NCBI GenBank assembly: GCA_025056255.1
Contig: JANWVT010000003.1
Coordinates: forward strand, 186,001-250,000
Length of the DNA stretch: 64,000 bases
Direction of reading: 5' to 3'
From: Bernardetiaceae bacterium
GTDB taxonomy: Bacteria; Bacteroidota; Bacteroidia; Cytophagales; Thermoflexibacteraceae
Shown here: positions 1,535 to 4,593 of the stretch, piece by piece
Layout: every line of letters starts with the position of its first letter
Position numbering within the stretch: the stretch's first letter is position 1
Made by a program: the position numbers and the translations under genes
The notes under the pieces: generated by a model
What the model was told of the DNA's origin: nothing
Database searches by the model: none
The model's input: only the letters and a program-made list of their open reading frames with translations

Positions 1535-2227
1535 TCAATCGTACACGTTGCTGATATGGGTAAGCATTTGCGGGTTTAAAATGCGTATTTTGCGCTTTTC
1601 TATGCTGATAATATTGGCATCCCGCAATTCAGAAATAACGCGGATGGCTGTTTCTTTTACGGTTCCTACAAAACTGGCTAAGTCCTCCCGCGTAAGGGAA
1701 ATAGTATGTTCCTCATCTGTGGAAGAATTAGCAAGCAACAGCAGCGCCTCTGCAATGCGACTTTTAACGGGTTTGTGTGCTAAGTCGCTTAATTTAGCCT
1801 CTGCTTCGTCAGCCTCTTTGCATATTAGCTCCATTAGGGCTTGGTAAAAATCGTTGTTATTTCGCAATAGCGAAAAAAAATCAGCCTTAGGAATCACACA
1901 AATCCGACACTCTTCTAAGGCAACGGCAGAGTACGTGTAGCGGCTTTTCAGTATCAGCGAGCGATACCCTAAAAAGTTACCTTCATGGGCAATGCGCACA
2001 ATCTGCTCTTTTCCGTTGGCACTCAGTTTGCTGATTTTTACCGTGCCGCTATTGATGCAATACAAAGCAGCCGGAGGCGTATTCTCTACAAATATGTACT
2101 CGCCTTTGCGGAACCACTGGGTTGATTTATGAGCGTTAATCTGTTCGGTTTCTGCTACTTGGCAAAAGCTAAATAGCGATTGTCCCCTGCTTTTGCAGTT
2201 GCGACAAATGGGACCTGCTAATTTCAT
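1535..2227 (-). CDS. Crp/Fnr family transcriptional regulator
   Basis: 230 residues. The N-terminal part (about 35-130) is a cyclic-nucleotide-binding type beta-roll; the C-terminal part has a winged helix-turn-helix (about 175-210) with recognition helix VGTVKETAIRV. Its E and R are placed like those of Fnr/Crp proteins that read a TGA half-site. Cysteines at 8, 11 and 22, plus a CRIC pair at 107/110 in the roll, invite comparison with Fnr-type redox sensing, but their spacing is not that of E. coli FNR, so the signal is unknown. It lies 58 bp downstream of the universal stress gene on the same strand and also has its own -7 box at 2255-2262. Confidence 0.9.
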   Translation of the reverse strand: MKLAGPICRNCKSRGQSLFSFCQVAETEQINAHKSTQWFRKGEYIFVENTPPAALYCINSGTVKISKLSANGKEQIVRIAHEGNFLGYRSLILKSRYTYSAVALEECRICVIPKADFFSLLRNNNDFYQALMELICKEADEAEAKLSDLAHKPVKSRIAEALLLLANSSTDEEHTISLTREDLASFVGTVKETAIRVISELRDANIISIEKRKIRILNPQMLTHISNVYD

Positions 2228-2285: not shown

Positions 2286-3188
2286 TTATTTTTTTAAAAT
2301 CATAACAGGAATATTGGCAGTATAGGTAAACGCTTTACTAACACTTGGGTCGAAAATCCGCTCAATAAAACTCCGCTTTTGATTGAGCAGTACCAACATG
2401 TCTGGTTTATGAGCCTGTACATATTGCCGAATACCCTCCATAGCACTGTCGGCTGTTTGCAGAACAAACGCAATCTGGGCTTCTGAAACATGCCAGTAGG
2501 TATTTTTGAGTTCGTCTATCAGTAATTGGTCGCTTTCTATTTGCTTGCTGTTAGTAGTGATGTGCAAACAAGTGAGCTTGCTATCGAACAATTTGCAAAA
2601 CTCCAGTAGTCCGTCAATAACAGCTGTATCGGCACGGTCGAAATTGGTAGCGTACACAATGTTGTGCAAGCCTTGATAGGTTACTTGTTGAGGAATTATC
2701 AAGATAGGGCAAGTTACTTGCTCAGCTACTGCTCCGGCAATAGAGCCCAGTATGATGCGCTCTAAACCACTTGCTCCTTTAGTTCCCATGACTACGAGTT
2801 GATACTCGCCACGATGCACCATTTCGCCGATGTCGTCGGCTACCAGCCCCATTTTCACCAATGTTTTCACAGAGAGTGGAGAGCCGTCGGCATAGGTTTT
2901 ATCGGCAAGTTTTTCTTTCAAACTCTCTAATCGCTCATTCCAATATAGCTCTTGGTTGTTAATCTGCATGTTGAGATAACTGGGGTCTATGGTGGCAAAC
3001 TGCACTTCGGTCATAACGTAAAAACCATGATACAAAGTAACTTCCGCCCCTGTTTTAGCAGCAATAGCAACAGCATAGTCTAATGCTGCTATCGAATTAT
3101 CAGAAAAATCTATGGGCACCAGTATTTGTGTGCGTGCCTGAGCAGTATCGGCTTGGGTTTGGTTAGTATGAGTTGGCAAAATATTCAT
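2286..3188 (-). CDS. Universal stress protein, tandem UspA domains
   Basis: 300 residues with two UspA folds in tandem (about 19-165 and 170-300). The first carries the ATP-binding signature G-x2-G-x9-G-S within GTKGASGLERIILGS. The second lacks these glycines (its end reads NIPVMIL) and probably does not bind nucleotide; such pairs are common in Bacteroidota. It is cytoplasmic, with a role in stress survival inferred from the family. It is the first gene of a unit with the Crp/Fnr regulator. An exact -7 box at 3216-3223 and a palindrome at 3246-3259 lie upstream, suggesting control by a Crp/Fnr protein, possibly the neighbour. Confidence 0.92.
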   Translation of the reverse strand: MNILPTHTNQTQADTAQARTQILVPIDFSDNSIAALDYAVAIAAKTGAEVTLYHGFYVMTEVQFATIDPSYLNMQINNQELYWNERLESLKEKLADKTYADGSPLSVKTLVKMGLVADDIGEMVHRGEYQLVVMGTKGASGLERIILGSIAGAVAEQVTCPILIIPQQVTYQGLHNIVYATNFDRADTAVIDGLLEFCKLFDSKLTCLHITTNSKQIESDQLLIDELKNTYWHVSEAQIAFVLQTADSAMEGIRQYVQAHKPDMLVLLNQKRSFIERIFDPSVSKAFTYTANIPVMILKK

Positions 3189-3215
3189 AGTTGAAATGAA
3201 AATAGGTTGTTAAGC

Positions 3216-3223
3216 CAAAGTTA
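3216..3223 (-). promoter_or_regulatory. Putative -7 promoter box of the usp gene (TAACTTTG)
   Basis: Exact TAnnTTTG match on the minus strand. With the usual placement (-11 to -4) transcription would start near 3212, giving a leader of about 24 bases to the ATG at 3188. Confidence 0.6.
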
Positions 3224-3245
3224 GGTGCAATACACAGTCGGATAA

Positions 3246-3259
3246 ATGACTTCTGTCAT
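3246..3259. promoter_or_regulatory. Fnr-type palindrome ATGAC-N4-GTCAT upstream of usp
   Basis: A perfect inverted repeat with 5-base arms and a 4-base spacer, the same geometry as the E. coli FNR site (TTGAT-N4-ATCAA), including TGA-N6-TCA. Its centre lies about 40-41 bases upstream of the predicted usp start site, the classical position for a class II Crp/Fnr activator. It also lies 39 bases before the ATG of the divergent gene at 3298, so it could affect both. Confidence 0.55.
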
Positions 3260-3297: not shown

Positions 3298-4593
3298 ATG
3301 ACAAACACAATTGCTTTTGATGCTTCTCGAAGAGATTTTATTCGCTCTGCCGGCATACTCACCTTAGGCGCCGCTACTGCTTCTTGGTCGGCAGCCACAT
3401 TTCGCCCCAATAGCGATACGTTGCGAATTGGGCTAATTGGTTGTGGCGGACGTGGCACAGGTGCTGCCAGCCAAGCTTTAAAAGCCGACAAAAACACAGT
3501 GCTGACAGCAATGGCAGATATTTTTGAAGACCATTTGGAAGAGTCGTACAAAAATCTGGTCTCTAAACACGGCGACAGGGTACGGGTATCCAAAGAGCAC
3601 CGCTTCATAGGATTAGATGCGTATCGCAAACTGATACATGCAGGCGTAGATGTAGTGATTTTGGCTTCACCACCAGCATTTCGTCCACAGCATATGGAAG
3701 AAGCGGTAGCTGCCGGTAAACATATTTTTGCTGAAAAACCAATGGCGGTGGATGTGCCTGGGTTGAAACGCGTGTTGGAGGCAACCCGCAAAGCACGCGA
3801 AAAAAAATTAGCCGTAGTATCAGGATTTTGCTGGCGTTATGACCTACCCAAACGAGCCATATTTTCCAAAATTCTCAATGGCGAAATAGGAGAGGTAGTG
3901 TCTATTTTGAATACATACAACACCGGACCTGCTTGGCAAAAAGACCGACAACCCAATTGGAACGATGCCGAATTTACACTTCGCAACTGGCCGCATTTTA
4001 CGTGGCTCTCTGGTGACTCCATCGCTGAACAAGCTGTTCACAGCCTCGATATGATGAGCTGGGCTCTGGGCGACAAGCCTCCTGTACGCGTATTTGGTAC
4101 GGGTGGGCGGCAAGTGAATACCGGCAAAGAATTAGGCAATATTTTTGACCACTTCGCTATTGTATACGAATATGAAAATGGTGTGAAAGGATACCATTTT
4201 AGCCGCAAGCAGTCCGGATGTTCCAACAGTTACTTAGTAGAAGTGGCTGGAACAAAAGGACAAGCCCTAATTGACTGCATGAAAAGCCGCCATGTTATCA
4301 CCTCATACGATAATAGGGCTTGGGAATACAGAGGCGAAAAAAATGACATGTACCAAACCGAACACGACGAGCTTTTTGCCTCCATTCGCAGCGGTCAGCC
4401 CCTCAACGACGGGGAGTGGATGACGCAAAGCACGATGTTAGCACTTATTGGCAGAATGGCTGCCTATACCGGACAAACCATTACTTGGCAAGAAGCATGG
4501 GCATCCAAAGAAGTGCTTATTCCCGACGACTTGCAGTGGGGGCAAACCCTGCCCGCCCCTATGGCAGTTCCGGGCATTACTAAGTTGTTGTAA
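3298..4593 (+). CDS. Gfo/Idh/MocA family oxidoreductase with Tat signal
   Basis: 431 residues. The N-terminus carries a twin-arginine export motif (ASRRDFIRSAG) and a hydrophobic run to about residue 33. An NAD(P)-binding Rossmann segment IGLIGCGGRGTGA (about 45-57) follows, then the family EKPMAVD motif whose lysine belongs to the active site, then the C-terminal substrate-binding domain. Family members oxidise or reduce sugars, often with tightly bound NAD(P); Tat-exported ones are frequent in Bacteroidota and Planctomycetota. Substrate unknown. Its last 14 bases overlap the end of the convergent kdsB. A degenerate -7 box TAAATTTC lies at 3268-3275. Confidence 0.9.
   Translation: MTNTIAFDASRRDFIRSAGILTLGAATASWSAATFRPNSDTLRIGLIGCGGRGTGAASQALKADKNTVLTAMADIFEDHLEESYKNLVSKHGDRVRVSKEHRFIGLDAYRKLIHAGVDVVILASPPAFRPQHMEEAVAAGKHIFAEKPMAVDVPGLKRVLEATRKAREKKLAVVSGFCWRYDLPKRAIFSKILNGEIGEVVSILNTYNTGPAWQKDRQPNWNDAEFTLRNWPHFTWLSGDSIAEQAVHSLDMMSWALGDKPPVRVFGTGGRQVNTGKELGNIFDHFAIVYEYENGVKGYHFSRKQSGCSNSYLVEVAGTKGQALIDCMKSRHVITSYDNRAWEYRGEKNDMYQTEHDELFASIRSGQPLNDGEWMTQSTMLALIGRMAAYTGQTITWQEAWASKEVLIPDDLQWGQTLPAPMAVPGITKLL

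Follow-up and report, generated by a model that had tools for sequence, protein, structure and literature searches.

Genes and features of the locus

The window analysed here is a stretch of 64,000 nucleotides from a Bernardetiaceae genome (contig JANWVT010000003.1, positions 186,001 to 250,000). Near its beginning the minus strand carries a gene for a two-domain universal stress protein of 300 residues (usp, 2286..3188; PF00582 matched in two stretches, E 6.6e-35) and, after a gap of 58 bp, a gene for a Crp/Fnr-type regulator of 230 residues (crp, 1535..2227, also minus strand). Divergent from usp, on the plus strand, lies a gene for a Gfo/Idh/MocA oxidoreductase with a twin-arginine leader (3298..4593).

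Between the divergent genes, at 3246-3259, is a perfect palindrome of the form ATGAC-N4-GTCAT, reading ATGACAGAAGTCAT on the usp strand and ATGACTTCTGTCAT on the plus strand and having no second exact match within the window. It is followed on the minus strand by the -7 box TAACTTTG (3216-3223), which agrees with the sigma-A consensus TAnnTTTG at all six of its six defined bases and is separated from the palindrome by a spacer of 22 bases. The palindrome with a -7 box behind it is a real feature, and an earlier reading made from sequence alone (the sequence-only reading) had given the palindrome and its coordinates correctly. We propose the palindrome as an operator, with no strand assigned.

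Class II activators are centred at -41.5. Transcript starts mapped in Flavobacterium psychrophilum put TAnnTTTG, the -7 box, at -12 to -5 (PMC9723704). With this placement, the usp transcript is predicted to start at 3211 on the minus strand, 23 nt ahead of the usp start codon, and the palindrome centre at 3252.5 is predicted to fall at -41.5. The class II position claimed in the sequence-only reading therefore stands, while its value of about -40.5 gives way to -41.5 under the Flavobacterium box placement.

The palindrome centre is also 45.5 bp from the start codon of the Gfo/Idh gene, with a similar distance of 43.5 bp in a second genome of the genus (G002). On that side, however, there is no -7 box at a spacer of 22 and the best box overlaps the start codon, so that the divergent gene was rejected as a class II target. 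The guarded suggestion that it too might be controlled from this site is not supported, because a properly spaced -7 box is missing and one congener keeps the site beside a different neighbour; we do not count the gene as a target.

The regulator protein

The regulator scores above the cut-offs of PF00027 and PF13545, giving a cNMP-binding-like domain followed by a Crp-type helix-turn-helix (HTH), the arrangement of the Crp/Fnr superfamily. Close relatives share 90 and 87% identity (from an uncultured Cytophagales bacterium and a Bernardetiaceae bacterium, respectively). Its recognition helix, GTVKETAIR (188-196), retains glutamate and arginine at the TGA-reading positions, as had been pointed out before, and neither E192 nor R196 varies among 17 orthologues.

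Four cysteines, C8, C11, C22 and C110, are all found in the best orthologue of each of the 11 family genomes aligned (11/11). Among the 27 non-fused orthologues of the order, 15 have all four; C8 and C110 are present in 27 of 27 and C11 in 26, and C22 is missing from 12. The N-terminal cysteines are spaced C-x2-C-x10-C, and C110 aligns with C122 of Escherichia coli FNR.

Scores against the curated NCBIfam models are far below their cut-offs: 69.9 of 228 bits for Fnr, 69.6 of 300 for FnrL, 60.1 of 300 for FixK and 67.3 of 266 for CRP, with NtcA likewise well short. An AlphaFold2 model of mean pLDDT 85.7, which contains no cluster, matches cAMP-binding CRPs and Aliivibrio fischeri holo-FNR (TM 0.85 to 5e44) about equally, so the ligand is not decided by the fold.

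The genome encodes one other protein whose Crp-type HTH exceeds the cut-off. Its helix, TARVVVSR, lacks the TGA-reading glutamate. The gene (L078 1576-2199, G000:C9) sits beside TauE-like, rhodanese-like and thioredoxin-like genes, as judged by eye.

We take K191 of the regulator to occupy CRP/FNR position 180. That position was linked to the third operator base by Rodionov and colleagues (PMC1274295). Here, orthologues with a VKE-type helix have A as the outer operator base in 25 of 34 half-sites and those of the T-type have C in 10 of 16, which suggests that helix residue 191 and the outer base are connected, although the association is confounded with clade.

Conservation and frequency of the exact palindrome

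The genus is represented by four genomes, G000 (that of the window) to G003. The exact palindrome occurs five times in the whole of G000 and the backwards control also five times; because exact sites are no commoner than control sites, the count alone proves nothing and was rejected as evidence. Their positions are more informative. Four of the five are centred outside called genes, 58-77 bp ahead of a start, and the fifth is intragenic. The genes behind the four are usp, hsp20, a metallo-beta-lactamase/rhodanese gene and a Tat-type sugar isomerase, the last named by eye. Across the four genomes, 13 of 24 exact sites lie outside called genes compared with 0 of 16 control sites (16 read of 17 found; Fisher P 0.0003) and, with a looser gene-edge rule, 15 of 24 compared with 3 of 16 (P 0.01), both P values being nominal as they count orthologous sites as independent although orthologues are not.

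The palindrome precedes usp-crp in all four genus genomes, the outcome that the sequence-only reading had looked for in its proposed comparison of related upstream regions. Two of the other three have it as ATGACGAAAGTCAT and the third as ATGACAAAAGTCAT; the full TAnnTTTG is here at a spacer of 23. In G001 the divergent gene is a different one and the DNA flanking the palindrome has diverged, yet the palindrome is kept. Beyond the genus, G009 from another genus of the family has a perfect palindrome 355 bp from usp, in a differing arrangement.

A broader motif and its candidate regulon

Since the cco promoters showed either C or T as the inner base, the motif was broadened to ATGAY-N4-RTCAT. 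This form occurs 23, 18, 27 and 24 times in G000 to G003, against 15, 11, 9 and 6 occurrences of the backwards control. All 68 sites of G000 (23), G001 (18) and G002 (27) were inspected, together with those of the 24 in G003 that were among the matches listed. One site was entered twice, and 29 of the 69 inspected entries are intragenic; these are presumed to be noise.

The genes behind the noncoding sites, apart from usp-crp, include ccoS-ccoN (ccoS by eye), ccoG (FixG_C, Fer4_18), ccoI (by eye), hemA (GlutR), two HSP20 genes, pdxH (PNPOx) and an aldehyde dehydrogenase gene. Further genes in this position encode the lactamase-rhodanese protein, a nitroreductase and two small proteins without any Pfam match, 114 and 128 residues long. 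Among the genes inspected behind noncoding sites in G000-G002, no hcp was noticed. The sequence-only reading had named the stress protein as a target: stress genes are indeed among the candidate targets, but the set as a whole consists mainly of genes for low-oxygen respiration, heme and chaperones.

In G000 and in G002 the palindrome ahead of the gene for the 128-residue protein is followed at spacer 22 by a full -7 box, and behind a palindrome of G008 lies a gene that looks similar by eye (loci L173 1570-1956, L186 near 1501 and L067 1054-1440). The 128-residue protein is a candidate for an unknown low-oxygen protein. Elsewhere in G000 and G002, where ccoG and a gene judged by eye to be pheT-like diverge (L172 around 1501, L195 around 1501), the palindrome between them also has a full -7 box at a spacer of 16 on the pheT side, where a dimer bound between the two genes might act as a repressor.

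Spacing between palindrome and -7 box

The spacing was assessed on an unpicked set, the 80 sides of the 40 noncoding entries, with a -7 box defined by at least five of six matching bases. At a spacer of 22, 19 of the 80 sides have a -7 box, where about 1.2 are expected per spacer from the background rate of 0.015 per side. Spacers of 23 and 21 give three and two, respectively, and any other spacer from 0 to 59 gives at most seven. On the sides of coding sites a -7 box at spacer 22 is seen once in 58. A histogram of 35 sites serves for illustration only, those sites having been hand-picked once their best -7 boxes had been seen. A good -7 box at 22-23 is absent from hsp20a in G000, G002 and G003, from ccoI and from several noncoding sites in all. 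The genome scan suggested earlier, for hits clustering near -41, found noncoding sites ahead of respiration and stress genes whose -7 box is spaced for a centre at -41.5.

Of 291 genomes of the order Cytophagales, 207 contain the pattern TGAYN4RTCA-N23-TAnnTTTG, with 737 matches in all; its N23 corresponds to a spacer of 22 counted from beyond the outer base. With the spacer shortened by 5 bp there are 90 matches in 73 genomes. This shifted-spacer pattern served as the order-wide control; the backwards control was dropped at this level, since promoters often have a -7 box in any case. No other single result of the analysis is as strong as this eightfold excess. Orthologues of the usp-linked regulator need not account for all of it. 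At 15 inspected loci, the downstream genes include one Usp (Pfam) and one lactamase-like gene (by eye).

Association with the cbb3 oxidase

A ccoN gene over the curated cut-off is present in 11 of 13 family genomes, and in all 11 the TGAY-N4-RTCA core is found upstream of ccoS/ccoN. In eight of these the site is a perfect ATGAYN4RTCAT; G000 and G010 are off by one outer base and G009 by two. The remaining two genomes, G004 and G006, have neither a ccoN over the cut-off nor a regulator orthologue at E 1e-20. At further full-length ccoN loci of the order, with three excluded as partial or weak, the core is found within 650 bp in 19 of 27 and not in the other 8, the chance expectation being about 0.04 per ccoN locus for equal base frequencies. 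The divergent neighbour of the regulator orthologue is ccoS-ccoN in G005, G011 and G012 and a ccoI-like gene in G029.

Several cco promoters (L103, L106, L132, L137, L157 and L158) have paired TGA-N6-TCA palindromes 22-23 bp apart, or about two helical turns.

Comparison with known regulators

The recognition helix of FNR is VETISR, its cysteines follow the pattern C-x2-C-x5-C with an additional central cysteine, and its operator is TTGAT-N4-ATCAA. The regulator described here shares with FNR the TGA-reading E and R and an operator in the class II position of -41.5, for predicted starts. It differs in the remainder of the helix (VKETAIR), in the cysteine spacing (C-x2-C-x10-C), in the operator, in family scores far under the NCBIfam cut-offs and in the Bacteroidota -7 box. 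Its half-site is ATGAY, with outer A and inner C or T, rather than the TTGAT of FNR-type proteins (given as TTGA-N6-TCAA in PMC11784457) or the TGTGA of CRP. Given the departures from FNR in operator, in the rest of the helix, in the spacing of the cysteines and in family score, we do not classify the protein as FNR proper, even though it appears from its sequence features to work like FNR.

The FNR, ANR, FnrN and FixK regulons of Proteobacteria have in common with the present system a TGA-N6-TCA palindrome, class II spacing and the E and R of the helix, as well as cbb3 oxidase and heme targets and, for FnrN, a small heat-shock target and autoregulation (PMC11784457). In Rhizobium leguminosarum, according to the same text, a small heat-shock protein is under FnrN control by way of an anaerobox, and FnrN also regulates itself and fixNOQP; this dependence of a small heat-shock protein and fixNOQP on FnrN is a known parallel that supports our reading. 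Anr boxes lie ahead of hemN and ccoN in Pseudomonas (PMC6588701), Usp proteins are up in micro-oxic Burkholderia cenocepacia (PMC3759415), and cbb3 and heme genes are up at oxygen limitation in F. psychrophilum (PMC9723704). Among the matches listed from the open-licence literature, no title or introduction describes an FNR-type regulon or operator of Cytophagales.

Two further families invite comparison. HcpR is also a Crp/Fnr protein, with the motif TTGACnnnnGTCAA in delta-proteobacteria and, for HcpR2 of Bacteroides and others, GTAACnnnnGTTAC; the delta-proteobacterial motif differs from ATGACnnnnGTCAT in the outer base alone (PMC1274295). HcpR targets are hcp and frdX, whereas the genes behind sites here are cco, hemA, hsp20, pdxH and usp. 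PgRsp of Porphyromonas gingivalis resembles the present regulator in being a redox regulator of the Crp/Fnr superfamily in Bacteroidota, but it is described as heme-binding and nearest to CooA, and the portion of its description available (PMC6955866) mentions neither an operator motif nor a link to cbb3.

Interpretation and alternative explanations

In our view the palindrome is quite probably the operator of the usp-linked Crp/Fnr protein, which would be an FNR/FixK-like low-oxygen activator that regulates its own gene along with a cbb3, heme and small heat-shock regulon. When oxygen is low, a cysteine-bound iron-sulphur cluster, its ligands probably C8, C11, C22 and C110, would stay intact, and the dimer would bind ATGAY-N4-RTCAT centred at -41.5. 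It could then recruit sigma-A RNA polymerase to the TAnnTTTG promoter, whose upstream element the operator covers, and so activate its own operon, including usp. The same element would act at ccoS-ccoN, ccoG, ccoI, hemA, the hsp20 genes, pdxH and others, forming a regulon of low-oxygen respiration and survival. What the genomes display directly is the palindrome with its spacing, its conservation and its downstream genes; from these we infer that the usp-linked regulator binds there, in which direction it acts, and that it carries a cluster and responds to oxygen. The core of the sequence-only reading, namely an Fnr-geometry class II operator serving the regulator's own usp-crp operon, is supported by the conservation in four of four genomes, the spacing and E192/R196.

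The same regulator and operator might instead answer to another signal, whether as a heme-bound sensor of NO or redox state in the manner of HcpR or PgRsp, through a thiol switch or through a small-molecule ligand. We judge this unlikely. It would fit the lack of C22 in 12 of 27 non-fused orthologues, an N-terminal cysteine spacing unlike that of FNR, the heme binding described for the Bacteroidota relatives HcpR and PgRsp (PMC12750200 and PMC6955866) and the carbon sensing to which Bacteroidota-type homologues have been assigned (PMC8510549). However, cbb3 oxidase and heme targets are typical of oxygen regulons, no hcp was noticed among the genes inspected behind noncoding sites, and the four cysteines, one of them aligned with FNR C122, are found in all 11 family orthologues.

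The sign and the reach of the effect are a separate question, since a bound dimer could repress usp-crp or act on both divergent genes. The distances to the Gfo/Idh start codon (45.5 bp, and 43.5 bp in G002) would suit this, but activators have the geometry seen here, in which a -7 box follows a centre at -41.5. On the Gfo/Idh side no -7 box occurs at 22 and the best one overlaps the start codon, and G001 retains the site next to another neighbour. We consider repression of usp-crp, or action on both genes, improbable. Very improbable, in turn, is that the operator is real and belongs mainly to some other regulator of the genome. Various Crp/Fnr types across the order, including receiver-fused ones near cco, may read TGA-N6-TCA; against this, the sole other Crp-type HTH protein over the cut-off in this genome lacks the TGA-reading glutamate, and the site is retained in front of usp-crp. 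The equal genomic counts of exact palindrome and backwards control, five each, would be expected of a chance palindrome without function, an explanation hardly credible in the face of the conservation, the sharp -7 box spacing and the eightfold order-wide excess over the shifted spacer.

Regulation of the FNR type is itself well known; what would be new is an FNR-like regulon of Bacteroidota with an operator of its own. The sensing of falling oxygen by Bacteroidota is little described, and a defined operator, spacing and regulator would make the low-oxygen regulon predictable in hundreds of genomes and directly testable.

A wider reading, to which we give an even chance, is that Cytophagales as an order possess an FNR-like low-oxygen system. 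It would comprise a distinct branch of regulators with their own cysteine pattern, pair K191 with outer A and T191 with outer C, and couple cbb3 and heme genes to Hsp20 and Usp. In some families it would be replaced or joined by a PAS kinase and a receiver-Crp fusion beside cco.

Such a fusion of receiver, cNMP domain and Crp HTH (352-353 residues) is found in other Cytophagales families, adjoining a kinase-like gene and 6-9 kb from ccoN (L232 12141-14497, L233 3256-5559, L234 9027-11277). At L233, Pfam confirms the receiver, the cNMP domain, the Crp HTH and a PAS histidine kinase, and a radical-SAM HemN-like gene lies alongside. A downstream Usp gene is borne out by Pfam at L232, its counterpart at L234 not. 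The fusion with its PAS kinase resembles FixL accompanied by FixJ and FixK in one chain.
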